Below, piece after piece: positions 20,268-56,393 of a stretch of DNA of 64,000 bases. Where the stretch lies: contig NZ_AP023366.1 of NCBI RefSeq assembly GCF_015097055.1, forward strand, positions 1,030,501-1,094,500. The letters are read 5' to 3'. Within the stretch, counting starts at the first letter, position 1; every line of letters starts with the position of its first letter. The position numbers and the translations under genes are program-made. This stretch comes from Effusibacillus dendaii (GTDB lineage Bacteria > Bacillota > Bacilli > Tumebacillales > Effusibacillaceae). Under the pieces are notes generated by a model, which did no database searches, had not been told where the DNA came from, and saw nothing but the letters and a program-made list of their open reading frames with translations.

Positions 20268-21416
20268 TCAGACCAGGCCCATTCGCTTTACCAGAATTTC
20301 ATTCATAATTTCGGTCGTTCCGCCGCCAATTGGCTGCAATCGGGCATCCCGCCAGTACCGCTGAACGGGATATTCCATCATATACCCATTGCCCCCATGA
20401 ATCTGGATGGCCATATCGGTTACTTCCCTGGCCATCTCTGCTGCAAGCGCCTTCGCCATCGTCGTCTCCGTCACCGCATCCTCGCCGTTTGCGTACAAAT
20501 ACAAGGCGTGATAGGTCAGATGGCGCGCCCGTTCAATCTCAACTGCCATATCCACCAACATATGTTGGATCACCTGAAACCGCCGAATCGGTCCGCCAAA
20601 CTGGGTTCGTTCGCCCGCATATTGGATGGCTGCTTCCAATGCAGATTCTGCTGTACCGACAGACATGATGGCGAGTGTAATCCGTTCCCACTGAAAATTT
20701 TGCATAATGTAATAAAATCCCTTGTTTTCTTCCCCCAACAAGTTGGCTGTCGGCACTTTCACTTCATCAAAAATCAATTCCGCCGTATCAGACGCCCGCC
20801 ACCCCAACCTTTTCAGTTTCCGGCCAACGGAAAATCCGGGCGTGTTGGTTTCCACAAGAAACAGGCTGATCCCCCGATGACCGGCAGCCGGGTCCGTTTT
20901 GGCGGCTACGACTGCGACATCAGCCCGTACGCCGTTTGTAACAAACATTTTGCTGCCATTTAAAACGTAACAATCCCCTTCTTTGCGAGCCGTCGTCCGG
21001 ATTCCTGCCACATCCGAGCCGGCGTATGCTTCCGTAATCGCAAACGCCGTTATTTGCTCACCGCGAATCCCTGGTGTCAGATATTTCCGCTTCTGTTCCT
21101 CATTGCCAAACCGCCAGATGGGCGGCAGACCGATTCCGATATGTCCGCCGATTCCGGCTGCCACACCATTGGAACCGCATTTGGCCAACTCTTCCAAAAA
21201 CACCGTCTCCATGATCAGATCGTCGCCACTGCCCCCATATTCTTCCGGAAACTTGATGCCCAAATAGCCCAACTCGCCCGCCCTTTTGAAAAGATGCGCA
21301 GGAAACTCCTCCATCCTTTCCCAATCGTCCACATAAGGAATAATTTCTTTTTTGACCCAACTGCGGACCGCATCCCGTAACATCTCATGTTCCCTGTTAA
21401 AAATCCAATGCGCCAT
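20268..21416 (-). CDS. acyl-CoA dehydrogenase (IVD/LCAD/AtuD-like active site)
   Basis: 382 residues, complete. FAD/substrate motifs FAITEAYAGSDVAGI and GGNGYMMEYPVQRYWRDARL are present. At the position where short- and medium-chain enzymes carry the catalytic Glu (YEGT) this protein has GGGT; instead WERITLAIM in helix G offers the Glu used by isovaleryl- and long-chain-type enzymes. This suggests a branched or terpenoid-like acyl-CoA. It is 13 bases downstream of a second dehydrogenase and belongs to the AtuA operon. Confidence 0.92.
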   Translation of the reverse strand: MAHWIFNREHEMLRDAVRSWVKKEIIPYVDDWERMEEFPAHLFKRAGELGYLGIKFPEEYGGSGDDLIMETVFLEELAKCGSNGVAAGIGGHIGIGLPPIWRFGNEEQKRKYLTPGIRGEQITAFAITEAYAGSDVAGIRTTARKEGDCYVLNGSKMFVTNGVRADVAVVAAKTDPAAGHRGISLFLVETNTPGFSVGRKLKRLGWRASDTAELIFDEVKVPTANLLGEENKGFYYIMQNFQWERITLAIMSVGTAESALEAAIQYAGERTQFGGPIRRFQVIQHMLVDMAVEIERARHLTYHALYLYANGEDAVTETTMAKALAAEMAREVTDMAIQIHGGNGYMMEYPVQRYWRDARLQPIGGGTTEIMNEILVKRMGLV

Positions 21417-21429
21417 GCAAGCACCCCCT

Positions 21430-22578
21430 CTACAGTTCCATCTGTTTGGCTATAATTTCTTTCATGACTTCATCCGTCCCTGCCCCGATCCGGTACAAAC
21501 GCACATCACGCCAGATTCGTTCAATCGGGTTTTCCTGCATATACCCGTTGCCGCCAAAAATCTGCAGCGCCCGGTCTGCCACCCAGCAAGCGGTTCTTGC
21601 TGCTTCCAGCTTCGCGATCGAAATTTCTTTTGACGGCACTTCTCCCCGCGAAAACCGGTAGGCGGTCGCATATGTCAACTGCCTTGCGGCTTCAATCCGT
21701 GTCGCCATCTGAACCAAAAGGTGACCGATCACCTGATTCTGTCCGATACTTCTGCCGAATGCCTGACGGCGTTTCGCATACGCAAGCGCCAGCTCGTAAG
21801 CGTGCTGCGCCATGGCCACCGAACCGGCTGCCGCAATCAACCGTTCCCCCTGCAGTTCCCACATAATCTGATAGAATCCTTTGCCTTCTTCCCCCAACAG
21901 ATTCGCATGCGGTACCCGCACGTTTTCCAGAATCAACTCCGCTGTATCTGAAGAGCGCATCCCCACCTTATCCAGTTTGCGGCTGACCGAAAAACCAGGC
22001 CGGTCAGTCTCAACCAGAAACAGACTGATTCCCTTATATCCCTCACCGGGTGAAGTACGCGTCACCAATACGACAAAATCGGCCCGCGGCCCGTTTGTAA
22101 TAAACATCTTGCTGCCGTTAATTACCCATTCGTCCCCGTCGCGAACGCCTTTCGTTTCAATCGCGGCGACGTCCGAACCGTGATTCGGTTCCGTAATGCC
22201 AATCGCCGCCAGTTTTTTGCCTTCCAGTGCCGGTCGCAGAAATCGTTCATGCTGGTCTTTATTGCCAAACTGCAAAATCGGCGGCGTCGCCATCTCCACC
22301 TGTACCGATACGGCCATCGGGAATCCGCCCGCCCCACATCGCGCCAATTCCTCGGCAAGCACAATCGACATAAAATAATCGCCGCCCTGTCCGCCCACTT
22401 CCACCGGATAACGCAGCCCCAGAAATCCCAGTTCCCCCATTTGCCTGATCACTTCAAGCGGAAACTCGCCTTTTTCTTCCCACTCATTGATGAAAGGGGT
22501 CACCTCTTTGGCGACAAACTGGCGGATCGCTTTCCGGACCTCATCATGCTCCTTCTTAAAAAAAGGACTTTTCGTCAA
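21430..22578 (-). CDS. acyl-CoA dehydrogenase (IVD/LCAD-like active site)
   Basis: 382 residues, complete. GITEPNHGSDVAAIETKG binds FAD and substrate, GGNGYMQENPIERIWRDVRL is the C-terminal signature. The canonical YEGT Glu is replaced (GAGTDEV); a Glu in GERLIAAAG of helix G is the likely base, as in isovaleryl-CoA dehydrogenase. The start is a TTG at 22578 behind GGAGGG. It differs clearly from its neighbour at 20268-21416, so the two are not a recent duplication and may act on different substrates or chain lengths. Confidence 0.92.
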   Translation of the reverse strand: MTKSPFFKKEHDEVRKAIRQFVAKEVTPFINEWEEKGEFPLEVIRQMGELGFLGLRYPVEVGGQGGDYFMSIVLAEELARCGAGGFPMAVSVQVEMATPPILQFGNKDQHERFLRPALEGKKLAAIGITEPNHGSDVAAIETKGVRDGDEWVINGSKMFITNGPRADFVVLVTRTSPGEGYKGISLFLVETDRPGFSVSRKLDKVGMRSSDTAELILENVRVPHANLLGEEGKGFYQIMWELQGERLIAAAGSVAMAQHAYELALAYAKRRQAFGRSIGQNQVIGHLLVQMATRIEAARQLTYATAYRFSRGEVPSKEISIAKLEAARTACWVADRALQIFGGNGYMQENPIERIWRDVRLYRIGAGTDEVMKEIIAKQMEL

Positions 22579-22599
22579 CTGTTCTTCCCTCCGTTTCTT

Positions 22600-22932
22600 T
22601 CACCACCAACTGTTATCCGGCACTTTTACTTCCATCCGAAGCAGATTCGAGCTGAAACATTTACCCAGATTATCCATCCGAATCGACGCAGAACCGCCGC
22701 CATTCAATGCTTCCCGGCAGATAAAATTGATCGCCCGCACATTTGGCAGCAGGTAACGGGTAACCTCCCCCTCTACCAATCCGGCAAAATGGGCTTTCAC
22801 CCGTTCGCAAGTCACTTGCTCTACAAATAGATGGTACAGATCGTCGTTCGGGGCAAATAAAGCCACATTTACCGTGTTGCCTTTGTCGCCCGAGCGGGCC
22901 TGCGCCAAATAACGGAGCTGCATGTTCGCCAT
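22600..22932 (-). CDS. AtuA C-terminal-domain-like small protein
   Basis: 110 residues, beginning RYLAQARSGDKGNTVNVALF and ending in a NLLRMEVKVPD strand. This is the small ferredoxin-fold domain that forms the C-terminus of AtuA in pseudomonads but is often a separate gene in Bacillota. The ATG at 22932 directly follows the stop of the large AtuA gene with GGAGG ahead, so the two are coupled and probably form one complex. The biochemical role of the family is not established. Confidence 0.85.
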   Translation of the reverse strand: MANMQLRYLAQARSGDKGNTVNVALFAPNDDLYHLFVEQVTCERVKAHFAGLVEGEVTRYLLPNVRAINFICREALNGGGSASIRMDNLGKCFSSNLLRMEVKVPDNSWW

Positions 22933-24300
22933 TCAATCCACCTCCGAAATCGATACCTGTACACGACTTTCTATCAAATCACGGGGAATCAGGCACGACC
23001 ACATCCCCAACAGCTCCCTCGGCTGCATCATGCCGGTAAAACCGCTCATCGTCGGCGGTCCATTCAGTGCCAACGGCGGAAACAAACGGCCTAATTTGGC
23101 CGCCTCTTCTTTCGTCCGTGTTCGGACAGCCACCCGCAGATACACTTCGTTTAACTCTTCCTTCGGCAGATTCACCGTCGGCCCGTGCAATGAGTTGTAT
23201 CCCATATAATCGGTACGGATTTCATCATACTTCAATCCCATCCGATCGATCTGCTTGCGAACGATTCGGTCGGCTGCCTCCGCTTTGGCCAATGCGTCCG
23301 GCCAGGAATAACCGGCGATTGCCTGCCCGACAAATCCATCCAGATAACCCATGACCACCTTCAAATGATCAGGCCGGCGTTTGCCGCGCGCACCGGTGAC
23401 GCGAACCTGATCAGGTCCCGTGTCTTCCAGCCGCACATCGGTCATGTCGAGCACCACATCAGGCGTCACGTAGGCGGACGGATCGTGAATTTCATACAAC
23501 ATTTGCTCTTTAACCGTATCCACGGAGACAAGTCCACCCGTGCCATCCGTTTTGGTGATCAAAAACTCGCCGTTTTCACGCACTTCCGCCACCGGAAAGC
23601 CGATCCGGTCCAGATCGGCAACCGCCTGCCAATTGCCGCTGAAGTTGCCGCCTGTCGCCTGACCGGAACATTCCATCAAGTGCCCCATCAGGATGCCATG
23701 CGCCATACGATCCCAATCATCTTCCCGCCAGCCAAACTCATGCACCAACGGTGCCAAAAATTGCGCCGAGTCGGTGGTCCGCCCCGTCACTACAATATCG
23801 GCGCCTTGCCGCAACGCCTCTACGATCGGCTGCACCCCGAGGTACGCATTGGCAAACTGGATGCGATCCAGCACCTTGTCAATTTTTTGGCCGGTTTCCA
23901 TATGATCAAGCGTTATACCCTGCTGCCGCAGTTCCGGAAGCCGATCCAACAGATCATCCCCCGTGACAACCGCCACTTTTAGCCCTTTGATTCCCAATTG
24001 GCGAGCGACGCGGATCACTTCCTGCTGCGCTCCCACCGGATTGATACCGCCTGCGTTGGTGAGGATCCTGATCCCTTTCTCCTTCACGTACGGCAGCAGA
24101 GCGTGCATCGCCGCCGTAATATCCCGCGTATACCCTTTCGTCGGATCTTTCTGGCGATCTTTTTGCAAAATCGCCATCGTCAACTCCGCCAAACAGTCAA
24201 AGCACAGATACTGCACGTTGCCCCGTTGGGCAGTTTCAACAGCAGGGAAAATCGAATCGCCGTAAAACCCTTCCGCCGCTCCAATCCGTATGCTTCGCAT
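22933..24300 (-). CDS. atuA: AtuA-like acyclic terpene utilisation protein (DUF1446)
   Basis: 455 residues. Signatures: RIGAAEGFYGDSIFPAVE at the start, CFDCLAELTMAILQKD, NAGGINPVGAQQ and GRTTDSAQFLAPLVHEFGW. AtuA is needed for citronellol/geraniol growth in Pseudomonas, but its reaction is unknown; DUF1446 proteins are widespread in acyl-CoA gene clusters. Its neighbours (two dehydrogenases, a hydratase, a CoA ligase, a biotin carrier) make an Atu/Liu-like branched-acid pathway plausible. GGGGAGGAGG precedes the ATG at 24300. Confidence 0.88.
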   Translation of the reverse strand: MRSIRIGAAEGFYGDSIFPAVETAQRGNVQYLCFDCLAELTMAILQKDRQKDPTKGYTRDITAAMHALLPYVKEKGIRILTNAGGINPVGAQQEVIRVARQLGIKGLKVAVVTGDDLLDRLPELRQQGITLDHMETGQKIDKVLDRIQFANAYLGVQPIVEALRQGADIVVTGRTTDSAQFLAPLVHEFGWREDDWDRMAHGILMGHLMECSGQATGGNFSGNWQAVADLDRIGFPVAEVRENGEFLITKTDGTGGLVSVDTVKEQMLYEIHDPSAYVTPDVVLDMTDVRLEDTGPDQVRVTGARGKRRPDHLKVVMGYLDGFVGQAIAGYSWPDALAKAEAADRIVRKQIDRMGLKYDEIRTDYMGYNSLHGPTVNLPKEELNEVYLRVAVRTRTKEEAAKLGRLFPPLALNGPPTMSGFTGMMQPRELLGMWSCLIPRDLIESRVQVSISEVD

Positions 24301-24346: not shown

Positions 24347-24985
24347 CTATCTCCCTTTAAATTGCGGCGTGCGCTTCTCGATGAAGGCACTGGCTCCTTC
24401 TTGCAGGTCTTCACTTAAGAAACTGACCACCCGCAGCGTGTTCAAATAATCCATGCTTTTTAACAAATCCATATCTTCCGTCGTATAGAACGCATCCAAT
24501 CCGAGGCGGATGGCAAGCGGACTGTACTCGGCGATTGTACAGGCCAGCGACGCCGCTTCCTCCGCCAGTCTGTCAGCTGGGACAACGCGATGAACCAATC
24601 CCATTTCCTTCGCTTCCTGAGCGCTTAAAATATCGCCTGTCAGCATCATTTCAAGCGCTTTCCGATGCCCTACCGCCCGCCGAATCCAGGGCAAAATCAC
24701 AAACGGCATCAGCCCCACTTTAATCTCCGTCGTACCAAACTTGGCTGTTTCCGACGCGATCGCAATGTGGCACATAGCGACCAAACCGCAGCCGCCTCCC
24801 AACGCGTGGCCGTTGACTGCCGCAATCAGCGGCTTTTTGACAGTGGCCCCCAACCGGAACAGCTCCGTGTTCGCTTTTCCCTCCTGATGATGCTGCGGAG
24901 CTGACATTAAAGCGCTTTGTGAAAAGGCGGCCAGGTCGCCGCCCGCTGAAAAAGCGCTGCCCGCTCCCTTATAGAAAACTCCCAT
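24347..24985 (-). pseudogene. enoyl-CoA hydratase lacking its N-terminal about 50 residues
   Basis: The frame from ATG 24985 reads GAGSAFSAGGDLAAF, AAVNGHALGGGCGLVAMCH and the complete C-terminal half GLVHRVV through FIEKRTPQFKGR. A normal crotonase of about 260 residues has another 50 residues before the GAGSAFSAGGD strand, including the first CoA-binding strands. These are missing, and upstream the frame is stopped within a few codons. The break coincides with a short direct repeat (CCCTTATAGAAAA twice, 24966-25001). Some activity cannot be ruled out, but a 212-residue crotonase with no first strands should not fold normally. Confidence 0.75.
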
Positions 24986-25001
24986 TCCCCCTTATAGAAA
25001 A
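24966..25001. repeat. short direct repeat at the broken hydratase end
   Basis: CCCTTATAGAAAA occurs at about 24966-24978 and again at about 24988-25000, 22 bases apart, exactly where the enoyl-CoA hydratase gene loses its 5' part. Confidence 0.7.
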
Positions 25002-25064
25002 CCTCGATTTCCCCATTCAAATCCCGCTCATTTTGCGGTACAATTGTAATAACATTCAGACAAC

Positions 25065-25082
25065 TGTTCGGAAAAGTATACA
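25065..25082 (+). promoter_or_regulatory. putative activator site, same motif as the sites at 42.9 kb
   Basis: An 18-bp element beginning TGTTCGG and ending TACA matches the pattern TGTYCGR-N8-ACA of the two sites at 42894 and 42924. It lies just upstream of the sigma-54 activator gene, where autoregulation or control of the divergent operon would be expected. Confidence 0.5.
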
Positions 25083-30441: not shown

Positions 30442-32058
30442 CTACATACGTATTAGATGATCTTTATACTGCTCCCGCAATGAACGTTTGAGAAATTTGC
30501 CAACCGAAGTTTTGGGGATTTCGTCAAGGAAAACGATATCATCCGGCACCCACCACTTGGCAAACTGACCCGCCAAATAGTCGAGCAGTTCCTGTTTTTC
30601 CACTTGATCCTTAAAATCCGGTTTTAGCGCAACAAATGCAACCGGCCGTTCATCCCATTTCGGGTGCGGCACGGCAATCACGGTCGCTTCAAACACTTTC
30701 GGATGAGCCATCAGGGCATTTTCCAGATCAACCGACGAGATCCATTCGCCGCCGCTTTTCACCAGGTCTTTTGTGCGGTCAACCAACTTCAGATATCCTT
30801 CTTCATCGATTGTTGCCACATCGCCCGAATGGTACCATCCGTCAATAAACGTTTCTTTGCTGCGCTCATCGTTATAATATTCGTCGGCCACCCAAGGACC
30901 GCGCAGCCAGACTTCGCCCATTTCCTGGCCATTCCAGTTGACGTCGCCGTTTTGACCGACCACCCGCATTTCCAAACCCGGTACCAACATGCCCTGCAGA
31001 GACCTGATATCGAGCAACCGGTCGACCGGCAGGTGTTGATGATTGCTGCGCAGGCGGGAGACGGAAGCAACAGGCGCCGTCTCTGTCATTCCATATGCGT
31101 GGATGAAGGGGATGCCGAATTTTTCCTCGTACGCTTTGATTAGGCCGCGCGGCGCTGCTGAACCGCCGCACAATACGGCGCGCAGGCTGGATACATCATA
31201 CGGCTGCTTTTCCAGCACCTGCAGGACACCTGTCCAGATCGTGGGCACGCCGGCTGCCGCCGTTATTTTTTCTGACTGGATAAGTTCAAGCAGAATTTGC
31301 GGTGTGGGGCCTGCTCCCGGCAGAACCAGCTTGGAACCGAACATGACAGCTGCAAACGGTATTCCCCATGCGTTAGCATGGAACATCGGGACAACAGGCA
31401 TCACTGTATCGTTTTCCGAGTAGGCGATTGTGTCTGCCAACCCCATGCACATCGTGTGCAGATAAATGCCCCGGTGAGAATAGACAACTCCTTTTGGATT
31501 GCCGGTAGTTGCCGATGTGTAGCACATGCCAGCCGCTTCATTCTCATCGATATCGCTGCGGAATTGGAAACCCGGATCGCCCGCCTCCAGCAGCTGTTCA
31601 TACGAATAGACCGGATGCAGCGCGGTTTCCGGCAGCTCCGGGTTGTCTGTCATGATGACAAACGCCTTTACCGTCGGAATCTGATCTTTTACTTTCTCGA
31701 TCAAGGGAATCAGATCTTCATCAATCATCAACACCTTATCTTCCGCATGATTGATGATGTAGGCGATATGTTCGGACGACAAGCGAATATTAATCGTGTG
31801 CAAAACCGATCCAATGCACGGAATGGCAAAATACGCTTCCAGATGACGGTGCTGGTTCCAGGCAAATGTAGCTACCCGATCACCGCGCTGCACCCCAAGC
31901 GTTTGCAACGCACTGGCAAGACGCCGGGCGCGTTTGCCAAAATCGGCGTACATGTATCGAAAAATACCGGAAGCCTTGCGGGTGACCACTTCTTTTTTCG
32001 GAAAGTATTTTTCCGCGCGTTCGATCAACAAGCGAAGTGTCAACTGCGTGTTCATCAT
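30442..32058 (-). CDS. long-chain fatty-acid--CoA ligase (AMP-forming)
   Basis: 538 residues, complete. The P-loop is CYTSATTGNPKGVVYSHRG, the A5 motif HAYGMTETAPVASVSRL, then WYHSGDVATIDEEGYLKLVDR and the catalytic lysine in KTSVGKFLKRSLREQY. This variant (TSATTGNPKG) is typical of the medium/long-chain FadD-like group found in Bacilli and Thermus. GGAGGGGG precedes the tandem ATGs at 32056-32058. Separated from the next upstream gene by 231 bases containing a large inverted repeat, so it may have its own promoter. Confidence 0.93.
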   Translation of the reverse strand: MMNTQLTLRLLIERAEKYFPKKEVVTRKASGIFRYMYADFGKRARRLASALQTLGVQRGDRVATFAWNQHRHLEAYFAIPCIGSVLHTINIRLSSEHIAYIINHAEDKVLMIDEDLIPLIEKVKDQIPTVKAFVIMTDNPELPETALHPVYSYEQLLEAGDPGFQFRSDIDENEAAGMCYTSATTGNPKGVVYSHRGIYLHTMCMGLADTIAYSENDTVMPVVPMFHANAWGIPFAAVMFGSKLVLPGAGPTPQILLELIQSEKITAAAGVPTIWTGVLQVLEKQPYDVSSLRAVLCGGSAAPRGLIKAYEEKFGIPFIHAYGMTETAPVASVSRLRSNHQHLPVDRLLDIRSLQGMLVPGLEMRVVGQNGDVNWNGQEMGEVWLRGPWVADEYYNDERSKETFIDGWYHSGDVATIDEEGYLKLVDRTKDLVKSGGEWISSVDLENALMAHPKVFEATVIAVPHPKWDERPVAFVALKPDFKDQVEKQELLDYLAGQFAKWWVPDDIVFLDEIPKTSVGKFLKRSLREQYKDHLIRM

Positions 32059-32156
32059 GGGAGTTCCCCCTCCTTGGTTGAATATAATAAATTTTCTGAT
32101 AAATAACGCTTCTATCGAAGCATATTCAAGAAGAAGCGGCGTCGAATAGAGGAAGT

Positions 32157-32228
32157 CTTTTTCAACAGCCGAAAGTATAAAAATGGTGATGGAATATCAC
32201 ATTTTTATACTTTCCAAGCTGTTAAAAT
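32157..32228. repeat. 72-bp imperfect palindrome
   Basis: GAAAGTATAAAAAT (32171-32184) matches ATTTTTATACTTTC (32201-32214) exactly, with TGAT/ATCA inside and AACAGC/GCTGTT (32164-32169, 32218-32223) outside. One bulged base interrupts an otherwise continuous stem of about 19 bp. It has no T tract, so it is not a usual terminator; a short mobile palindrome or a large operator is possible. The remaining bases of the 231-base gap hold nothing recognisable. Confidence 0.75.
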
Positions 32229-32289
32229 ATTCTGTGCAGAGAGGAAATTTCCCTTCTTTTCCATGAAACCCACACAATTTTTGTAAGAC

Positions 32290-33447
32290 TCATACGACCC
32301 CCTGATTCCTTAACTCCCCGATTTCCTCCGCTGAAAGCTTCAGCACGGTGGCAAGCACTTCCTCTGTATCCCGCCCCAGAAAAGCGGCAGGTTCAGTGCG
32401 CAAATCAGGCTGGTAGCCGCCTGCCGATGTATGGGTAACCGCCAAAGAGATCCCATCAGCCGATTGTTGACGTTCGACAAGTCCTTTTTCTGCCGCCTGC
32501 CGATGTTTCATCATCTCACTTGTTGTCAGAATGGGCGCCATACAGCAATCCACTTCTTCCGCAAAACGGCTCCACTCAGCGAACGTTTTACTGCGAAACG
32601 TTTCTTTCACCTGCACAAAAATCGGATTCGTGTCCGCTGCCGCGCTAAAATGAGCTGCGATCCACTCTTCACGCCCGACGGCGCGGCAAAAGTTCTCCCA
32701 AAACTTTACTTCCAGCGCACCCAGACTGATAAACCGTCCTTCTTTTGTTTCATAGATGCAGTAGGAAACGATACTGCCGCCTAACTGCGGAACGCCTGTC
32801 TCTATCCCGGTCAGGTGCTGAATCATTACATGGTTGGCCATCAGTCCGATCATCGCATCTGTCATGGAAATGTCGAGAAAGGATCCTTCTCCTGTCAACT
32901 GCCGTTTGACAAGCGCCGCGCAAATCGCTTCCGATGCGGTTATGCCGCCAATCAGATCGGCGAACTGGATGCCCGGCTGGATAGGACGCCCTGCCTGATC
33001 CCTTAATTGGGACAGCACGCCGCTGTACGACATATAGTTGATATCATGACCGCCAAGATCTTTAAGCGGTCCAGTCTGTCCGTAACCGGTGAGCGAACAG
33101 TAGACAATGTCCGGTTTCGCCTGCCGCACTTTTTCATAACCGATTCCCATCACATCTGCCACACCGGGCCGGAATCCTTCGATCACGACATCTGCCCGGC
33201 TTGCCAAACGAAACGCCAATTCCTGACCGCTCGGGTGTTTCAGATTGATCGTAATACTTTTCTTGCTGCGGTTATTGGCGAGAAAAACAGGACCCGTCCC
33301 CGACTGCTGACCTACCAATCGAGCCGGATCGCCGCTTTTGGGAGGTTCCACCTTAATGATTTGCGCCCCCATTTCCGCAAGCCGCTCAGTGGCATAAGGT
33401 CCTGGCAAGTACCGCGAAAAATCGGCCACAACGATCCCCTTTAGCAT
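32290..33447 (-). CDS. CaiB/BaiF-type CoA transferase
   Basis: 385 residues, family III CoA transferase moving CoA between acids through an Asp-anhydride intermediate. VVADFSRYLPGPYATERLAE at the N-terminus, VEPPKSGDPARL, the nucleotide-contacting NNRSKKSITINLKHPSG and the catalytic Asp in KDLGGHDINYMSYSG. An ATG exists at 33465, but GGGAGTGA fits the ATG at 33447. Last gene of the R-specific beta-oxidation operon; it could activate the substrate by CoA exchange in place of a ligase. Confidence 0.92.
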   Translation of the reverse strand: MLKGIVVADFSRYLPGPYATERLAEMGAQIIKVEPPKSGDPARLVGQQSGTGPVFLANNRSKKSITINLKHPSGQELAFRLASRADVVIEGFRPGVADVMGIGYEKVRQAKPDIVYCSLTGYGQTGPLKDLGGHDINYMSYSGVLSQLRDQAGRPIQPGIQFADLIGGITASEAICAALVKRQLTGEGSFLDISMTDAMIGLMANHVMIQHLTGIETGVPQLGGSIVSYCIYETKEGRFISLGALEVKFWENFCRAVGREEWIAAHFSAAADTNPIFVQVKETFRSKTFAEWSRFAEEVDCCMAPILTTSEMMKHRQAAEKGLVERQQSADGISLAVTHTSAGGYQPDLRTEPAAFLGRDTEEVLATVLKLSAEEIGELRNQGVV

Positions 33448-33531
33448 CGGCGTCACTCCCTTCATTCAAAACACTTATGTATCAATCCTGCGGCAACCCG
33501 GTTCCAACGGGCTGCCGCAGCTTACTTGCTC

Positions 33532-34341
33532 TTACGTGTAGGATCCTCCGTTCATATGCACCACTTGGCCGTTCGTGTAGTTCGAAAGCGGGGACGCCAG
33601 AAACAAAATGACCGACGCTGCTTCTTCCGGCGTGCCTGCACGGCGCTGCGGAATGGCTTGTTCAAACATTTTACGAACTTTGCTGGGAATCCCGACCGCC
33701 ACGCCTTGAACGGTCTCGCCTTTTTCTTTTTCCTGCGTCAAACGGGTATCTACTAAACCGTATGCCACCGCATTCGTATTGATGTTAAACGGTCCCCACT
33801 CTTTGGCAACCGTTTTGGTCAGACCGATCAAGCCCGATTTTGCGGAAGAATAGTTGGCCTGCCCCACGTTGCCAAATGCGGCAACAGACGTTACATTGAC
33901 GATTTTCCGGTAGTTGGTGATGCCTTGCTCGATTTCCGTTTTTGCGGCGTCCCGCATATAAGGAGATGCTTCCCGGATCATGCGGAACGGTGTAATCAGA
34001 TGTACATCGAGCATTTTCTGGAACTGTTCATCTGTCATTTTGTGAATCAGAGCGTCCCACGTATAACCCGCATTGTTGACCAATATATCCAGTCGGCCGA
34101 ACGAGTCGATCGCGGCCGCAATCGCCCGTTTTGGAAAATCAGCCGCTGTTACATCCCCTACAACGCTGACGCCTTCACTTCCTTTTGCACGGATGGCAGC
34201 GATCGTTTCCTCTGCCGGACCCGCATCGAGATCATTTACGACGACTTTGGCGCCGTGTTCGGCAAACAATTCTGCAGTTGCCCGACCGACACCTCGCCCG
34301 GAGCCGGTAATAATGGCTACTTTACCTTCCAACATTTTCAT
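33532..34341 (-). CDS. SDR dehydrogenase, probable (R)-3-hydroxyacyl-CoA dehydrogenase (MFE-2-like)
   Basis: 269 residues, NAD(P) Rossmann fold: AIITGSGRGVGRATAELFAE, acidic VVNDLDAG after strand 2 (suggests NAD preference), NNAG, and the catalytic Ser-Tyr-Lys set with YSSAKSGLIGL. The segment FGNVGQANYSSAK resembles the dehydrogenase part of peroxisomal MFE-2, which oxidises (R)-3-hydroxyacyl-CoA. Two MaoC-type hydratase halves lie immediately upstream, consistent with an R-specific beta-oxidation spiral. A FabG-like reductase role is the alternative. Confidence 0.88.
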   Translation of the reverse strand: MKMLEGKVAIITGSGRGVGRATAELFAEHGAKVVVNDLDAGPAEETIAAIRAKGSEGVSVVGDVTAADFPKRAIAAAIDSFGRLDILVNNAGYTWDALIHKMTDEQFQKMLDVHLITPFRMIREASPYMRDAAKTEIEQGITNYRKIVNVTSVAAFGNVGQANYSSAKSGLIGLTKTVAKEWGPFNINTNAVAYGLVDTRLTQEKEKGETVQGVAVGIPSKVRKMFEQAIPQRRAGTPEEAASVILFLASPLSNYTNGQVVHMNGGSYT

Positions 34342-34403
34342 TTGCTTCCCTCCCCTTTAACGATAATAATTGGCTGCTTCTCCTGCTTTCCATCGCCCTG
34401 ATA

Positions 34404-34811
34404 CTACAGGGCCACTTCAAACTCACCTTTCAGTTTGGTTTCACCCGCCTGATTTTTCGCCTCGACTGAACAACGAAGACGGTTTTCCGAACCCGCCGTG
34501 ATCTGCTCCAACACTTTCCCTGTGACGATAATCTGTTCACCCGGTCTTGTCATGGCGGTGAAACGAACACCGAATCGGCGCAGATTTTTGCGCGGAATCC
34601 AGGTGGTAATCGCCCGGCCGGCCAATCCCATAATCAGCATGCCGTGTGCAATAACGCCGCCCAGACCCGCTTTTTCCGCGATCGGAACCACCGTGTGAAT
34701 CGGGTTGAAATCGCCCGATGCACCCGCATATTTGACAAGTTGGATGTGTGTGATTTCCGGCGACTCAACAACAGGAAATTCCTGCCCGACTGTTACTTGC
34801 GATTGTTGCAT
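34404..34811 (-). CDS. MaoC-like hydratase subunit (catalytic half)
   Basis: 135 residues, a single hot-dog domain with the catalytic Asp-x4-His in ASGDFNPIHTVVPIAEKAG and the following VIAHGMLIMGLAG loop. Its partner upstream (34830-35285) has the MaoC N-terminal type sequence. Such two-gene pairs (HadA/HadB, ChsH1/H2 in actinobacteria) form heteromeric (R)-enoyl hydratases. GGGGGCA precedes the ATG. The 18-base gap to the partner supports co-expression. Confidence 0.9.
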   Translation of the reverse strand: MQQSQVTVGQEFPVVESPEITHIQLVKYAGASGDFNPIHTVVPIAEKAGLGGVIAHGMLIMGLAGRAITTWIPRKNLRRFGVRFTAMTRPGEQIIVTGKVLEQITAGSENRLRCSVEAKNQAGETKLKGEFEVAL

Positions 34812-34829
34812 CGCTTATGCCCCCTTTGG

Positions 34830-35285
34830 CTAATGTCTTTCGATAATCACCGAACGGGCGACCAACACTTTCTCTCCCGCCTGGTTGGTGTATTCCGTTT
34901 CCAGCGTGAACAGGTTCATGCCGCCGCTGCCGCTCGCTTTGGAAACCGCATTTTTGACCGTTGTCCGGCCCGTAATCTGATCGCCCGGATAGATATCGCC
35001 AAGGTATTCATATTCCTGCTCTCCGTGCAGCACCTTCAGCGGATTGATATCAAGCGCCTTGGTCATCTCAAAAAAGTCGGTACCGCCCCACATTTCAATC
35101 ACCGTCGCATAGGTGGGCGGGATCGGCGAATCGGCAAATCCCTCCTGTTCCGCGCGCAAACGGTCATAATAAATCGGATTCCCGTCGCCGATCGCCATGG
35201 CGAACTCGCGGATTTTACCGCGTTCGATGGCAAACGTAAACGGTTCAAACTGTTTGCCGATGATGCCGCTGAAGTCTCTGCTCAT
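34830..35285 (-). CDS. MaoC N-terminal-type hydratase subunit (FAS1-like dehydratase domain)
   Basis: 151 residues: PFTFAIERGKIREFAMAIGD, GNPIYYDRLRAEQEG and IPPTYATVIEMWGG, then GEQEYEYLGDIYPGDQITGR. This is the non-catalytic or regulatory hot-dog half seen as the N-terminal domain of double hot-dog hydratases; the Asp-His pair is not complete. It probably pairs with the product of 34404-34811. ATG at 35285 with AAGGAGG upstream, 12 bases after the dehydrogenase gene. Confidence 0.88.
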   Translation of the reverse strand: MSRDFSGIIGKQFEPFTFAIERGKIREFAMAIGDGNPIYYDRLRAEQEGFADSPIPPTYATVIEMWGGTDFFEMTKALDINPLKVLHGEQEYEYLGDIYPGDQITGRTTVKNAVSKASGSGGMNLFTLETEYTNQAGEKVLVARSVIIERH

Positions 35286-35297
35286 GCATGTTCCTCC

Positions 35298-36443
35298 TTA
35301 CAGCCCCATGTTTTTGGCTATGATCGTTTTCATGATTTCATTCGTTCCGGCATAAATCGCCGAAACGGGGATGTCCCGGAAACGGCGTGCAATCGGATAT
35401 TCTTCCATATATCCATAGCCGCCGTGCAGCTGTACGCATTGGCTGGCCACCCGTTTGGCCATATCAGTAATCCACCATTTTGCCATCGAGACACGTGTCA
35501 CGATTTCTTTTCCTGCCATATGATCCGCGATTAACTGATCGAGGAAGGCGCGACCGACTTCTGCTTCGGTCGCCATTTCCACAATTTTGAACTGTGTGTT
35601 CTGGAATTTGCTGATCGGTTGACCAAACGCTTCCCGCGTTTTCACATACTCGACCGTCATTTTAATCATTTCTTCCGCCGCCACCTGCGCCGCGATCGCC
35701 ACAATCAGCCGTTCCTGCTGCAGCTTATCCATCAGATATTTAAAACCTTGGCCTTCTTGTCCCAACAGGTTCGAAACAGGCACACGGCAATCTTCAAAAA
35801 TCAATTCTGCCGTGTCCTGGCTGTGCAGCCCGATTTTGTTCAGTTTGCGTCCTCGGGAGAAACCGGGTGTATCGCGTTCCACCCAGATCAAACTAATTCC
35901 TTTGTGTTTGGGAACCGCATTCGGATCTGTTTTAACCACGACAAGCACCAGATCGGATTGAATGCCGTTTGTAATAAATGTTTTCTGGCCGTTTAACACA
36001 TAATGATCGCCGTCTCGAGCCGCCGTCGTGCGGACGTTTGCCAGATCGGAACCTGTACCCGGTTCAGTCATTGCAATGGCGGTGATGATGTCGCCGCGGG
36101 TGCAGCCGGGCAGCCAGCGCTGTTTCTGTTCTTCCGTTCCGTATGAAGTGAGATACGGAACCACAATATCGTTGTGCAGGCCGATTCCCACCATACCGGA
36201 GCCGACCCTCTCCAATTCCTCGTTAATAACCACCGAATAGCCCCAGTCCGCTCCGGAACCGCCGTATTTTTCATCGACATCGGGACAGAGGTAGCCTTGA
36301 TCCCCCATCTTTTTCCAGAAGGAACGGGGAATCATCCGCTCTTCCTCCCATTGGTCAAAATAGGGAACCGCTTCCTTCTCCAAAAACTTGCGCAGCGTGT
36401 TTCTAAACATACGATGTTCTTCTTTCAAATATAAATGACTCAT
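35298..36443 (-). CDS. acyl-CoA dehydrogenase, copy 1 of a tandem pair
   Basis: 381 residues. AIAMTEPGTGSDLANVRTTA and LHGGYGYMEEYPIARRFRDI are FAD/substrate motifs. The end reads IYAGTNEIMKTIIAKNMGL, with Ala instead of the YEGT Glu; the Glu in LQQERLIVAIA is the likely base, as in long-chain and isovaleryl-type enzymes. It is about three-quarters identical to the dehydrogenase at 38083-39228 of the same operon, with the same length and termini, so the two arose by duplication. GGAGGAG precedes the ATG. Confidence 0.93.
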   Translation of the reverse strand: MSHLYLKEEHRMFRNTLRKFLEKEAVPYFDQWEEERMIPRSFWKKMGDQGYLCPDVDEKYGGSGADWGYSVVINEELERVGSGMVGIGLHNDIVVPYLTSYGTEEQKQRWLPGCTRGDIITAIAMTEPGTGSDLANVRTTAARDGDHYVLNGQKTFITNGIQSDLVLVVVKTDPNAVPKHKGISLIWVERDTPGFSRGRKLNKIGLHSQDTAELIFEDCRVPVSNLLGQEGQGFKYLMDKLQQERLIVAIAAQVAAEEMIKMTVEYVKTREAFGQPISKFQNTQFKIVEMATEAEVGRAFLDQLIADHMAGKEIVTRVSMAKWWITDMAKRVASQCVQLHGGYGYMEEYPIARRFRDIPVSAIYAGTNEIMKTIIAKNMGL

Positions 36444-36502
36444 AGTTCTCCTCCAGTCTTCACATGATGTTTATGGATTTTCGGCAATCTGTCAGAGAGG
36501 CG

Positions 36503-38065
36503 TCAATTCACCTGTCGTCCGTTCGTGCTCCAGTATTGGTCGCGGAGTGTCCGCTTGAGAATTTTGCCGGCCCCTGACTTCGGCAATGCATCAACAAAAT
36601 CCACCGATTTCGGAACCTTGTAATTGGCCAGCGACAACCGGCAGTGCGCCATCAATTCTGCCTCACTCGCCGATTGACCCGGTTTCAGGACGACGACCGC
36701 TTTAATCGCTTCGCCCCATTTTGCGTCCGGAATTCCAATGACAGCCGCTTCTAAAACAGCCGGGTGGGTGTAAATGACGTTCTCTACTTCCACCGAGTAG
36801 ACGTTCTCCCCGCCGGTAATGATCATGTCTTTTTTGCGGTCGACAATGTAAAGAAAACCGTCTTCATCTATCGTTGCCATGTCACCCGTATAATACCAAC
36901 CATCCTTCAATACGGCAGCCGTTTCCTCCGGCCTGTTCCAGTATCCTTTCATGATGTTGGGAGCTCTGGCAACAATTTCGCCAACTGTGCCGGGTGGAAC
37001 AGGATTTCCGTCAGGATCGACCACCTTGATCCGCACCTGAAAAACGGGCAATCCGCAGGACGACAAGCGTCTTGCATCCCGTTCATCACCATCCAGCACG
37101 TGATGTTCCGCAGACAGGGAGGTAAGCAACGGAGACGCTTCTGTCATACCGTATCCCTGACCGAATTCGCAGTTTAGAACCTGCATCGCTTTGCGCAACA
37201 CTTCCGGCGGAATCGGCGACGCCCCGTACGCGAGCCGTTTCAGCGAGGACAAATCGTATTGATCCAAATCGGGATCGTTGACCAGCATGTTGATCATCGT
37301 CGGTACCAATAACGTATGTGTGACTTTGTCTCGCTCAATAGTTTCCAGCACCTTCTGCGTGTCGTACATGCGAACATGAGAATGGGTGCCGCCAAGCATC
37401 GTCAAAGCAAATGTGCTGCCGCCGTCCGCCAGATGGAACATCGGTGCTGCATGCAGATAGACGGTATCTTTATTGTATTCGGAGTTCATCCCGACCTGGA
37501 ATGCGTTGACAGTCAGATTTTTGTGTGTCAGCATCACGCCTTTCGGCGCTCCGGTGGTGCCGCCTGTATAATAAATCCCGGCCACGTCCTGCTCGTCGAT
37601 CTCGACAGACTGCCAGACTGACAGCCGATCGATCAGATCTTCATAGGATAAGGCATCCACCCCTTCTGTCATTTGCGGTGCCGCCAGTACATAGTGGTTA
37701 ACCGTTTGCATCTCTTGCCGCACCGCCTGAATAACGGGTACAAATTCACGATGAAAGAACAATACTTTGGCGCCCGAATCGTTGATCATAAACGATACTT
37801 CCGGCGGCGCCAACCGCACATTTAACGGAACCACGATCGCTCCGCAAACCAAACTGGCGTACAGAATCTCAAGATAATGAAAGCTGTTCAAGAGCAGCAT
37901 GCCGACCCGGTCGCCTTTTTGAATTCCCATTTCCTGCAGGGCGCCCGCCAATCGCGTCACACGATGCCCGAATTCGCCGTATGTGAACTGCACATCACCG
38001 TCAAGTATGCCGATTTTATTCGGTTTGTTGCGTACCGTATTCCAAAAGCCCGTGGTCAAGATCAT
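36503..38065 (-). CDS. AMP-forming acyl-CoA synthetase
   Basis: 520 residues, complete: P-loop IYYTGGTTGAPKGVMLTHKN, A5 motif QGYGMTEASPLLTSL, WYYTGDMATIDEDGFLYIVDR and the C-terminal lysine in KSGAGKILKRTLRDQYW. An open frame extends upstream to 38263, overlapping the neighbouring dehydrogenase, but GGGGG lies seven bases before the ATG at 38065, where the family begins (LTTGFWNTVRNKPNKIGI). It is the only intact ligase of this operon; the one at its head is broken. Confidence 0.93.
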   Translation of the reverse strand: MILTTGFWNTVRNKPNKIGILDGDVQFTYGEFGHRVTRLAGALQEMGIQKGDRVGMLLLNSFHYLEILYASLVCGAIVVPLNVRLAPPEVSFMINDSGAKVLFFHREFVPVIQAVRQEMQTVNHYVLAAPQMTEGVDALSYEDLIDRLSVWQSVEIDEQDVAGIYYTGGTTGAPKGVMLTHKNLTVNAFQVGMNSEYNKDTVYLHAAPMFHLADGGSTFALTMLGGTHSHVRMYDTQKVLETIERDKVTHTLLVPTMINMLVNDPDLDQYDLSSLKRLAYGASPIPPEVLRKAMQVLNCEFGQGYGMTEASPLLTSLSAEHHVLDGDERDARRLSSCGLPVFQVRIKVVDPDGNPVPPGTVGEIVARAPNIMKGYWNRPEETAAVLKDGWYYTGDMATIDEDGFLYIVDRKKDMIITGGENVYSVEVENVIYTHPAVLEAAVIGIPDAKWGEAIKAVVVLKPGQSASEAELMAHCRLSLANYKVPKSVDFVDALPKSGAGKILKRTLRDQYWSTNGRQVN

Positions 38066-38082
38066 ACTTTTTCCCCCTACGG

Positions 38083-39228
38083 TTACAACCCCATATTTTT
38101 GGCGATGATCGTTTTCATGATTTCGTTGCTGCCGGCAAAAATGGCGCTGACCGGCGTGTCGCGAAATCTTCTGGCGATTTTGTACTCTTCCATGTACCCG
38201 TAACCGCCATGCAGTTGCAAACACTGGGAAGCGACTCGCTTGGCAAGCTCTGTGGTCCACCATTTGGCCATTGACACTTTGGTGACGATGTCTTTGCCTG
38301 CCATATGTTCTTCAATCAGTTGATCGACAAACACGCGCCCAATCTCGATTTCTGTAGCCATTTCGACGATTTTAAACTGTGTGTTTTGGAACTTGCGGAT
38401 CGGCTGTCCGAACGCTTCCCGCGTTTTGACATAATCGACCGTCATGTTTAACATTTCCTCCACGCCAATCATCGCGCCAATGGCCACCACCAGCCGCTCC
38501 TGCTGCAGTTTTTGCATCAGGTATAGGAATCCTTGCCCTTCACGGCCGATCAGATTGTCGGTCGGCACCCGCACTTCTTCAAAAATCAGTTCTGCCGTAT
38601 CCTGGCTGTGCAGCCCGATTTTGTTCAATTTGCGGCCCCTCGTAAAACCGGGCATGCCGCGTTCCACCACTAACAAGCTGACCCCTTTATAGGCCGGAAC
38701 TGCTTTCGGATCTGTTTTGCAGGCGACAATCACCAGATCGGACTGAATCCCGTTTGTAATGAACGTTTTCTGGCCGTTCAGTACATAATGGTCGCCGTCC
38801 CGGATGGCGGTGGTACTGATGCGGGCCAGATCAGAACCGGTTCCCGGCTCTGTCATGGCAATCGCGGTGATGATTTCGCCTGTTGTACATTTCGGCAGCC
38901 AGCGCTGTTTCTGTTGATCCGTTCCGTATGCTTCGATGTAGGGAACGACAATATCATTGTGCAGACCGAATCCTCCCAAGCCGCCGCCGATTCGTGACAT
39001 TTCCTCCGAGATGACCACCGAATACAGCCAATCTGCGGATGCACCGCCATACGCTTCATCAAGTGTCGGGCAGAGGTATCCCTGTTGGCCCATTTTGATC
39101 CAAAGAGAACGGGGAATCAGCCGATCTTCCTCCCACTGGTCATAATACGGCGCCACTTCTTTGTCCAGAAACTGACGGAGCGTTTTGCGAAACAGTTGGT
39201 GTTCTTCCTTAAAAATCGTACGGTTCAT
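38083..39228 (-). CDS. acyl-CoA dehydrogenase, copy 2 of a tandem pair
   Basis: 381 residues. AIAMTEPGTGSDLARISTTA, LHGGYGYMEEYKIARRFRDT and the end IFAGSNEIMKTIIAKNMGL. Active-site logic as in copy 1: Ala at the YEGT position and Glu in LQQERLVVAIG. The opening MNRTIFKEEHQLFRKTLRQF is nearly parallel to copy 1. The two copies flank the CoA ligase. Divergence between them suggests that both are kept for different acyl chains. The start is ATG at 39228. Confidence 0.93.
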   Translation of the reverse strand: MNRTIFKEEHQLFRKTLRQFLDKEVAPYYDQWEEDRLIPRSLWIKMGQQGYLCPTLDEAYGGASADWLYSVVISEEMSRIGGGLGGFGLHNDIVVPYIEAYGTDQQKQRWLPKCTTGEIITAIAMTEPGTGSDLARISTTAIRDGDHYVLNGQKTFITNGIQSDLVIVACKTDPKAVPAYKGVSLLVVERGMPGFTRGRKLNKIGLHSQDTAELIFEEVRVPTDNLIGREGQGFLYLMQKLQQERLVVAIGAMIGVEEMLNMTVDYVKTREAFGQPIRKFQNTQFKIVEMATEIEIGRVFVDQLIEEHMAGKDIVTKVSMAKWWTTELAKRVASQCLQLHGGYGYMEEYKIARRFRDTPVSAIFAGSNEIMKTIIAKNMGL

Positions 39229-39323: not shown

Positions 39324-40508
39324 CTACCCGATTTCCTTGCCGACGATCGAAATGAACGATACGCACTGCCAGGGAAATCCGCCGAGATTGTGCGTCAGGC
39401 CGATTTTCGGATTGTCGAGCTGCCGTTTGCCGGCTTTGCCTTGAAATTGCAGCCACATTTCATACAGCATCCGAAGCCCGCTGGCACCTATCGGATGACC
39501 GAACGATTTTAATCCGCCGTCCGGGTTGACAGGCAGTTCGCCCTCCAGATCAAAAACACCGTTTAACACATCTCTCCAGGCCTGCCCCCGTTCGCTGAAA
39601 CCAAGATCTTCATAAATCACCAGTTCGGTCGGGGTAAAGCAGTCGTGTACTTCCGCCATGCTGATCTGTTTGCGCGGCTCCGTAATACCGGCCTGTTGAT
39701 AAGCATCTTTGGCGGCCCACACATTTTCCCGGATCGAAGTAAAATCAAAATCCTGCCGCAGTCTGCCGTCCCCAGGCCCGGCGGCAATCGTCAACGCTTT
39801 CACATACATCGGGTCTTTCCGGAATTTGTGAGCATCCTCCGCGCGGACGATAATCGCTGCCGCTGCACCATCCGCCACGCCCGAACAGTCCATAATCCCA
39901 AGCGGAGCAGCGACCGTCGGCGATTTCAGGATCGATTCGATCGGCACCTCGCTGCGGAACTGCGCTTTCGGATTGAGTGAACCATTCCGGTGGTTTTTCC
40001 AGGCGATACGGGCCAACACCTCTTTGCCCTGCTCCGAATCCAAACCGTACTTGTTAAAATAGGCCGGTGCCAAAAACGAGAAGGCAGCAGGCGCCGTAAT
40101 GTCAGGTGCTGTCCCGTCCGAATCGGGGCCCGTGACCGCCAATCCGCTGTAGCCGGAATCTTTTAGCTTTTCGACGCCGATGGCCAACACCATATCGTAA
40201 GCACCCGCCGCCACCGCATAGCACGCGTTGCGAAACGCTTCGGAACCGGTCGCACACATGTTTTCCACCCGGGTTACCGGCAAGTATTGTGTTTTCAAGG
40301 GACCTGACAATGTCAATCCGGCAAGCCCGGATGTGAATGTGCCCAACCAGCATGCTTCGATGTCGGTTGGTTCGACGCCCGCATCGGCAAACGCTTCATA
40401 TGCGGCCTCTACCAGCAAATCTTCGACGCTTTTGTCCCAATGTTCAGCAAACCGGGTGCAGCCCATGCCGATGACAGCTACCTGATCCTTGATTCCTTTG
40501 CGTCTCAT
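39324..40508 (-). CDS. SCP-x-type thiolase (acetyl-CoA C-acyltransferase)
   Basis: 394 residues. Catalytic Cys in RVENMCATGSEAFRNACYAV, HDCFTPTELVIYEDLG, and GGLKSFGHPIGASGLRM with the conserved His. The lineage resembles SCP-2/Ltp2-like thiolases, which cleave branched or sterol-side-chain 3-ketoacyl-CoA and usually need a DUF35/OB-fold partner; the gene immediately upstream ends in just such a domain. Overlaps that gene by four bases. AGAGGGGG precedes the ATG. Confidence 0.91.
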   Translation of the reverse strand: MRRKGIKDQVAVIGMGCTRFAEHWDKSVEDLLVEAAYEAFADAGVEPTDIEACWLGTFTSGLAGLTLSGPLKTQYLPVTRVENMCATGSEAFRNACYAVAAGAYDMVLAIGVEKLKDSGYSGLAVTGPDSDGTAPDITAPAAFSFLAPAYFNKYGLDSEQGKEVLARIAWKNHRNGSLNPKAQFRSEVPIESILKSPTVAAPLGIMDCSGVADGAAAAIIVRAEDAHKFRKDPMYVKALTIAAGPGDGRLRQDFDFTSIRENVWAAKDAYQQAGITEPRKQISMAEVHDCFTPTELVIYEDLGFSERGQAWRDVLNGVFDLEGELPVNPDGGLKSFGHPIGASGLRMLYEMWLQFQGKAGKRQLDNPKIGLTHNLGGFPWQCVSFISIVGKEIG

Positions 40509-42053: not shown

Positions 42054-42765
42054 CTACTTCACCTGCGGCTGTTCTATCAATTCCTCGCGCAGTTTGTATT
42101 TCAACACTTTCCCCGATGCGTTGCGGGGAATTTGATCGACAAGGAAAAGTTTGCGAGGGATTTTGTAGCCTGCCAGAGACTGACGGCAAAACGCTTGCAA
42201 TTCCTCCAGATCGATCGTCTGGCCCGGTTTTGGCACAATGACGGCCGCCACCATTTCACCCCAAACTTCGTGCGGCACACCGATTACCGCTGCTTCCAGC
42301 ACGGACGGATACCCGTACAACACCTGCTCGACTTCCACCGAATACACATTTTCACCGCTGGCCCTCGATTGCCGGTTGACCGACAACGATCACATGGGCG
42401 TCGGCGGGTACCGTTGATCGCGCCTCTTCAATCAAATTTGCAAATTCCGCATCACAGACCACCATCACGGAATCGGAATGATCGAGAATGTAATTGACTT
42501 CTGTGGCGGTTAGCCGAAAATTGACCGGAACCAGCACCGCCCCCGCTTTGGCGGCCGCAAAGAAAGCGATTGCAAAATAATCCGAGTTTTTCATCATCAG
42601 GGACACTTTTTGACCTTTTTGCAGCCCGAGCGCTATCAACCCGTGCGACAATCGGTTCACCAACCGGTTAAACTCTCCGTACGTGTAATCGCGCCCTTCA
42701 CAGGTCAGCGCCCATTTATCCGGGTGCCGTCTTGCATTTCTCGCCAAACAACTGCCGATGTCCAT
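42054..42765 (-). pseudogene. acyl-CoA synthetase with the middle deleted and a frameshift
   Basis: Starts properly at ATG 42765 with GGGGTG ahead (GSCLARNARRHPDKWALTCE), runs about 137 residues to VIVVGQPAIEG, then jumps at about 42357-42365 into another frame at ASGENVYSVEVEQ and continues to the normal end RNASGKVLKYKLREEL. About 270-290 residues are lost, including the P-loop and most of the adenylation site. It is the first gene behind a sigma-54 promoter, so the remaining operon may still be transcribed. Confidence 0.88.
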
Positions 42766-42804
42766 GTTTTCACCCCATGTGTGTTCCATTGTGTTCCCTG
42801 AGAT

Positions 42805-42821
42805 TGCAAATTTTGTGCCAA
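42805..42821 (-). promoter_or_regulatory. sigma-54 (-24/-12) promoter of the R-specific beta-oxidation operon
   Basis: The minus strand reads TTGGCACAAAATTTGCA: GG and GC are exactly ten bases apart and both core elements (TGGCAC and TTGCA) match the RpoN consensus. Transcription would begin near 42794, about 30 bases before the ATG at 42765. Confidence 0.85.
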
Positions 42822-42893: not shown

Positions 42894-42941
42894 TGTTCGA
42901 TTATCCGGACACTCAACAACAAGTGTCCGATTTTTTGTACA
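42894..42941. promoter_or_regulatory. two 18-bp activator sites, 30 bp apart, upstream of the sigma-54 promoter
   Basis: TGTTCGATTATCCGGACA (42894-42911) and TGTCCGATTTTTTGTACA (42924-42941) share TGTYCGATT and a terminal ACA. They are spaced 30 bp (about three turns), 73-136 bp upstream of the promoter, as expected for an enhancer-binding protein. The end of the first and the start of the second also form CGGACACT/AGTGTCCG. Confidence 0.65.
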
Positions 42942-43041
42942 GTTGTTTTTTTCAAACAGCAAGGATTTTTACAGACCACAAGGAATTTTGCTTATCATTT
43001 CTAAGTAATGTTTACAAACCAACATATGGGGGGAGTTTATG

Positions 43042-56354: not shown

Positions 56355-56393
56355 CACGTCCCCTCCCATTTGACCAAATAGCGCAAAATTTAT

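Follow-up and report, generated by a model that had tools for sequence, protein, structure and literature searches.

Which operon is served by the sigma-54 activator with CBS and PAS domains that is encoded at 25 kb in this stretch of the Effusibacillus dendaii genome, and does the protein also act on its own gene? We analysed the whole stretch of 64,000 nucleotides (the window). The initial annotation had noted that an 18-bp element in front of the activator gene fits TGTYCGR-N8-ACA, the pattern of two sites at 42.9 kb, and on that ground had paired the regulator with an operon 17 kb away and suggested autoregulation. The features that bear on these questions are listed in Table 1; relatives in other genomes are designated by genome (G) and locus (L) numbers.

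Table 1. Features of the window that are discussed in the text
Feature	Position	Strand	Basis
AtuA (22933-24300), small ORF (22600-22932) and two acyl-CoA dehydrogenases, remainder of the divergent AtuA operon	20268..24300	-	Pfam
Enoyl-CoA hydratase remnant, ~56 N-terminal residues missing; head of the divergent AtuA operon	24347..24985	-	sequence comparison
Sigma-A-like promoter of the activator, TTCAAA-17-TACAAT, 9 of 12 consensus bases	25016..25044	+	promoter scan
Second 18-bp site, TGTCTGAATGTTATTACA on the minus strand, 20 bp from 25065	25045..25062	.	rank 3 of 63,983
18-bp palindromic site TGTTCGGAAAAGTATACA	25065..25082	.	pattern match; rank 4 of 63,983 with the clade-A matrix
Sigma-54 activator: 2 CBS, 2 PAS, AAA+ with GAFTGA, Fis-type HTH; 715 residues	25102..27249	+	Pfam; clade A in the tree
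Operon remainder: acyl-CoA dehydrogenase, acyl-CoA ligase, acyl-CoA dehydrogenase, 2 MaoC-type hydratases, SDR, class III CoA-transferase, acyl-CoA ligase	30442..39228	-	domain matches
Thiolase (acetyl-CoA acetyltransferase PRK06157, over its cut-off)	39324..40508	-	family match
ACP_syn_III_C + ChsH2-type OB protein (HMG-CoA-synthase-like)	40505..42013	-	Pfam
Operon gene 1, acyl-CoA ligase, internal deletion of ~270 codons	42069..42774	-	sequence comparison
Perfect -24/-12 sigma-54 promoter TTGGCACAAAATTTGC	42806..42821	-	pattern match
Candidate enhancer site 2, 18 bp, TGTTCGATTATCCGGACA	42894..42911	.	rank 2 of 63,983
Candidate enhancer site 1, 18 bp, TGTCCGATTTTTTGTACA	42924..42941	.	rank 1 of 63,983
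BtrH_N/DUF4872 gene, divergent from the operon, shares the sites' gap	43039..44031	+	Pfam

The activator and the elements in front of its gene

Pfam bore out the description of the protein as a sigma-54 activator with CBS and PAS domains (Sigma54_activat, PF00158, 231 bits, with GAFTGA in the translation) and placed an HTH_8 (Fis-type) domain at its C-terminus (residues 665 to 704); the genome itself encodes sigma-54 at one place (PF04552, 213 bits). The protein resembles PrdR, its best NCBIfam match (NF041552), in the PAS-AAA-HTH part, but scores 523.6 bits against a family cut-off of 795, and the best-matching stretch covers residues 246 to 705 only, with the CBS part outside it. The coupling to adenine nucleotide or acyl-CoA levels that had been attributed to the CBS domains would be an extrapolation from other CBS proteins. 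The minus strand also encodes a further sigma-54 activator, PrpR-like, at 54420-56369, with a perfect -24/-12 promoter (54306-54321) just downstream of its gene.

The element at 25065-25082 is present on the plus strand as described, with no mismatch to TGTYCGR-N8-ACA and 19 bp between its end and the ATG at 25102, and both 42.9-kb sites fit the pattern equally well, the one at 42894 on both strands. To these we add the site at 25045-25062, since the initial annotation had named 25065 alone in this gap. Elements resembling the 25-kb pair are present in G002 and G382.

The proposed search of the 3.45-Mb genome gave 44 matches to TGTYCGR-N8-ACA, 21 on the forward and 23 on the reverse strand, and the reversed control gave 30 (7 and 23), a slight enrichment that leaves the loose pattern close to chance frequency. 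Taken alone, this pattern is weak ground for pairing regulator and operon, and we dropped the genome count as a way of judging it because the pattern is too degenerate. A stricter palindrome with an A/T core (TGTNYRNWWWWNYRNACA), composed after the sites had been seen, occurs at 6 places in the genome (control, 3), half of which are the sites described here; of the others, two are internal to coding ORFs and one precedes a small gene, and a sigma-54 promoter was found at none of these three loci. Perfect 18-bp palindromes of the form TGTYCGR-N4-YCGRACA occur at least once in 18 of 61 genomes. We set such counting aside as a test; a match ~48 bp after the G035 activator had provided the first lead, yet it is terminator-like too.

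The promoter and operon at 42.8 kb

Across the genome, TGGCACN5TTGCW is matched perfectly at eight places, one of them the promoter upstream of the operon. The two 42.9-kb sites, offset by 30 bp, are centred ~110 and ~140 bp before the expected start, a usual distance for enhancers. Judged by its genes, the operon is of the acyl-CoA beta-oxidation type, and to that extent its earlier reading as one for fat catabolism stands. Its first gene is probably broken; here as in the operon divergent from the activator, open genes follow a damaged leading gene (42069-42774 and 24347-24985, respectively). The operon genes that the window shares with G095 are in identical order in both.

Two further observations concern the gap upstream of this operon. 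A homologue (52 percent) of its BtrH_N/DUF4872 gene lies directly behind the activator in G052 (L251), and on the plus strand the two sites together form a terminator-like hairpin (42906-42929; 8 pairs, a loop of 8 and a T run).

Relatives of the activator fall into two clades

We assembled 34 CBS-PAS activators from three sources: 41 genomes, a search of 398 genomes in which an alignment of the N-terminal half was the query (E was below 1e-60 in 29), and one collection scan with the whole protein. The scan returned mostly unrelated activators, and we kept the 4 of its 80 loci that match across the CBS part (L140, L141, L142 and L144); G090, which ends at a contig edge, was left out. A tree that included one paralogue from the E. 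dendaii genome placed 14 rows, the window among them, in clade A, 15 in clade B and 5 in neither, with each clade forming one side of a branch with support 100 (asterisked). The N-terminal CBS pair, the PAS domains and the place in the tree all assign the window activator to clade A. By eye, a tail of the form I-x-x-[EK]-x-x-[FY], or close to it, follows the recognition helix in 14/14 clade-A and 0/15 clade-B rows. Of the three CBS-PAS activators in one genome, G041 (L255, L256, L272), two belong to clade A and the third to neither clade.

In the window, G002, G184, G252, G303 and L142 (Alkalihalobacterium chitinilyticum), the clade-A activator is divergent from an operon with AtuA and acyl-CoA dehydrogenase genes, which also holds an enoyl-CoA hydratase and often a carboxyltransferase gene; G041b has acyl-CoA dehydrogenases and a carboxyltransferase in the divergent position, without AtuA. 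With G041b counted, a divergent operon of the AtuA/carboxylase type is found in 6 of the 13 clade-A relatives, five of which have a sigma-54 promoter between activator and operon. Such a promoter, present in the gaps of G002, G041a, G041b, G382, G230, G252, G303 and L142, is common in clade A, not universal. A biotin carboxylase operon lies behind the activator in G033, G052 and G081, and in G033 (L069, 15339-15356) and G081 (L257) we noticed a TGT..ACA palindrome between the sigma-54 promoter and the biotin carboxylase gene, ~100-130 bp past the promoter.

In clade B, the activators of G035 and G095 directly precede an operon of the 42.8-kb type, in which the thiolase is 84 and 89 percent identical, respectively; the gap between activator and operon holds sites and a sigma-54-like promoter. 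G228 has a similar operon of weaker identity by its activator, and most other clade-B rows have an acyl-CoA dehydrogenase homologue nearby. When the G035 activator was compared with the E. dendaii genome, the window activator was the best match, at 526 bits (next, 410). Several clade-B loci (L074, L075, L134, L276, L265) carry a palindrome, AAGTGTCC...GGACACTT followed by T, directly after the activator gene, terminator-like and enhancer-like in one.

The divergent AtuA operon of the window has the gene order seen in clade-A relatives. Its gap contains no sigma-54 promoter at up to two mismatches, contrary to most clade-A relatives with an AtuA operon. At the broken head of its enoyl-CoA hydratase gene, CCCTTATAGAAAAC occurs twice (24960-25005), a short tandem duplication.

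A motif from other genomes picks out the sites

For motif discovery we used expectation-maximisation with a palindromic model; the input was 12 gaps from clade A and 14 from clade B, without any DNA from the window. The gaps came from 12 of the 14 clade-A rows (the window being kept out as the test and G033 as a near-copy of G052) and 14 of the 15 clade-B rows (without G317). Gap limits were set by hand from predicted sigma-54 promoters. The gap upstream of the activator served for G052, which showed no promoter, and for G081, despite the downstream position of its promoter; G018 and G184 showed no promoter either, and upstream stretches of 200 and 180 bp, respectively, were taken.

The best width for clade A was 18 (59.9, against 54.2, 39.6 and 46.1 at 16, 17 and 19), and the motif was an 18-bp palindrome, TGT-N12-ACA, with an A/T core. 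For clade B, a width of 17 was strong (100.8, against 44.5 and 52.6 at 16 and 18), while a width of 19 gave 103.4 and proved to be the 17-mer flanked by a single base at either end. When widths of 14 to 21 were tried from a bare TGT..ACA start, the likelihood was highest at 18 in clade A (56.9, followed by 46.3) and at 17 in clade B (100.8, followed by 57.8). The clades are not cleanly split by width, because the best site of G002, a clade-A member, is a strong 17-mer (17.6).

Applied to the window, the clade-A matrix placed the two 42.9-kb sites and the two 25-kb sites at the first four of 63,983 positions (Table 1), with 10.9 for 25065 against 14.3 and 17.9 for the 42.9-kb sites; the clade-B matrix run over the window did not single out these four. 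In a Markov null of 2 million bases, the score of each 42.9-kb site was reached once (5e-7 per position), that of 25045 at 1.25e-5 and that of 25065 at 1.8e-5 per position. Because G002 shares descent with the 25-kb gap, we also removed G002 and G382 from the training set, and the ranks were then 1 (42924), 2 (42894), 3 (25065) and 4 (25045).

Unguided leave-one-out runs converged on TGT..ACA in 5 of 12 cases and on ACAATTGT in 7, which we read as the junction of neighbouring sites (for example, ACA-AT-TGT in the 25-kb gap); the bare TGT..ACA start for leave-one-out was chosen after those seven runs had drifted. In the 12 rounds started in this way, 42924 ranked first every time, 42894 ranked 2-7, 25045 ranked 2-8 and 25065 ranked 3-11, while 12 shuffled sets gave likelihoods of 28.5-36.5 and placed no site better than rank 627. 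The left-out clade-A gaps scored 3.7 to 17.8, with L142 (3.7) and G052 (4.9) at the low end, and some clade-A gaps are poorly described by the matrix.

Site and sigma-54 promoter occur together

Among the eight perfect sigma-54 promoters of the genome, that at 42.8 kb alone is preceded within 300 bp by a clade-A site scoring more than 7.4 bits; its site scores 17.2. We also compared nine copies of the target operon from eight genomes, allowing one mismatch in the sigma-54 promoter. Promoter and site were both present in 3/3 (best site scores, 17.2 in the window and 18.3 and 20.8 in G035 and G095) and both absent from the other 6/6: the copies in G001, G002, G018, G041 (two) and G106 have no sigma-54 promoter before the operon and no site above 6.6. 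No CBS-PAS activator was found in G001 at E below 1e-60. Both 42.9-kb sites have the 18-bp width preferred by clade A, the clade of the window activator.

By eye, TetR-type AATGA/TCATT repeats lie upstream of the operon in G001, G002 and G018 (L128, L130, L131). Elsewhere in the E. dendaii genome, the perfect promoter at 3078271 (L065), with a further activator gene ~2 kb away, has a 17-bp site upstream (TGTTCAGAAAATGTACA; TGT-N11-ACA, 15.8 with the clade-B matrix), which may be a related site read by a different activator.

The sites at 25 kb and control of the activator gene

The sigma-A-like promoter of the activator gene predicts a start near 25051, so that the sites at 25045 and 25065 fall over and just behind it; by eye, TACAAT stands at the equivalent place in G002. 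No sigma-54 promoter with up to two mismatches was found in the gap before the activator gene. Autoregulation is plausible, though not in the form that had been implied, since the promoter just before the sites is sigma-A-like and no sigma-54 promoter precedes the gene. Because the sites flank the predicted sigma-A promoter, binding at 25045 and 25065 would be likelier to repress the activator's own expression.

G002 has a near-identical sequence, TACAATTGTAGTAACATTCAGACAA, with a TGT..ACA palindrome behind it and the AtuA sigma-54 promoter ~130 bp off on the other strand. As in relatives, the 25-kb element is probably also what remains of an enhancer of the divergent AtuA operon. In the simplest history that we infer from the sequences, one deletion would have taken the promoter and the gene head and spared the enhancer pair.

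Discussion

The pairing of regulator and operon suggested by the initial annotation is supported by motif discovery in other genomes, by conserved gene order and by co-occurrence. We consider it very probable, from sequence comparison, that the CBS-PAS protein is the enhancer-binding protein of the 42.8-kb operon and that it also binds the twin sites of its own gene, likely limiting itself. Activator dimers would bind the 18-bp palindromes TGT-N12-ACA at 42894 and 42924, and the AAA+ domain would open the sigma-54 promoter, from which the operon would be read leftwards. A metabolite sensed by the CBS/PAS half would in this way induce the acyl-CoA oxidation operon. The twin sites at 25045 and 25065 would be bound too, most likely limiting expression of the activator from its sigma-A promoter, and would represent a relic of the AtuA enhancer, the divergent operon being without its sigma-54 promoter in the window.

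Several findings count against this explanation: the activators that adjoin the operon in G035 and G095 belong to clade B and the window's to clade A; the loose pattern is close to chance frequency; most unguided leave-one-out runs drifted from TGT..ACA, gap limits were hand-set and some left-out gaps scored low; G002 has its strong 17-bp site; the 42.9-kb pair can form a hairpin; and TGT-N10-12-ACA is common to many activators, with ~14 other strong activator hits in the genome. One of these other activators could drive the 42.8-kb promoter by reading TGT-N-ACA, the likeness at 25 kb being coincidence or cross-binding. Enhancers of the TGT/ACA type with 10-12 bp spacers belong to 15 of 39 Clostridiales activator groups, whose activators include some with CBS domains, in the portion of that survey considered here (PMC6615313), and the site at 3078271 fits the idea of a different reader. 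The nearest candidate, however, the PrpR-like protein, has a perfect promoter of its own at 54306 with no such site upstream (best, 6.7), CBS-PAS orthologues adjoin the operon in G035 and G095 and, at lower identity, in G228, and the width of the sites fits clade A, so that we regard control by another activator as improbable. Far less credible still is the reading of the 42.9-kb pair as an intrinsic terminator (stem CGGACACT/AGTGTCCG, then T) whose likeness to 25065 is due to chance. A hairpin scan was indeed positive there on the plus strand, and the clade-B palindrome directly after the activator gene is terminator-like in several genomes; but no plausible plus-strand gene ends at that point, the pair is flanked by divergent genes and precedes a perfect sigma-54 promoter, the outer halves of both sites fall outside the stem and yet fit the matrix, and the 25-kb sites have no such hairpin.

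A narrower doubt concerns the 25-kb element, which might be an inherited remnant that is no longer bound, leaving the activator to act at 42.9 kb alone. Both the sigma-54 promoter and the head of the first gene are gone from the divergent operon, and 25065 fits the matrix less well than the 42.9-kb sites do. The 25-kb pair nevertheless still ranks third and fourth in the window, and similar sequence is kept in G002 and G382; we think loss of binding rather unlikely, though less so than control by another activator. Taking the CBS-PAS protein as the regulator of the 42.8-kb operon, we suggest tentatively, as possible rather than probable, that the family reads enhancers in two registers, of 18 bp for clade A and 17 bp for clade B, and that an operon which elsewhere goes with clade-B regulators was taken over here by a clade-A regulator, its enhancer now being 18 bp wide and the original AtuA operon having lost its sigma-54 promoter. 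The C-terminal tail of clade A is a possible cause of the change in register.

Like the one-component enhancer-binding proteins of the FhlA, NifA and PrdR types, as far as the considered portion of PMC6615313 describes them, the window family combines an AAA+ domain and a Fis-type HTH with an inverted TGT/ACA enhancer upstream of a -24/-12 promoter, and like those that read TGT-N10-12-ACA, it appears to assign one regulator to a local catabolic operon. It differs from them in its input of two CBS and two PAS domains, in its targets (AtuA/carboxylase or acyl-CoA ligase/thiolase operons) and in a preferred site width that varies by clade. In Bacilli and Clostridia, genes behind predicted sigma-54 promoters are enriched for lipid genes and are reported to include acyl-CoA dehydrogenases and acetyl-CoA acetyltransferases such as those of the window operon; unlike here, the sections of that study drawn on assign them no activator or enhancer (PMC12316311). 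In the sigma-54 systems of Bacillus thuringiensis, according to the excerpts used (PMC4428206), the activator usually adjoins its target promoter, sometimes in opposite orientation, as in the clade-A relatives, whereas in the window the promoter with the sites lies 17 kb from the activator. A search of open-access papers found no description of a CBS-PAS sigma-54 activator of such operons. TGT/ACA enhancers and predicted sigma-54 control of lipid genes are already known; the newer part is possibly the difference in site width between clades and the operon with a changed regulator.

The analysis assigns a target operon and a candidate binding site to the CBS-PAS family of sigma-54 activators, and in doing so it puts a guess made from one sequence to the test by motif discovery in other genomes. 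If the change of register is true, the family would offer a natural comparison of how activator and enhancer change jointly as an operon changes hands.
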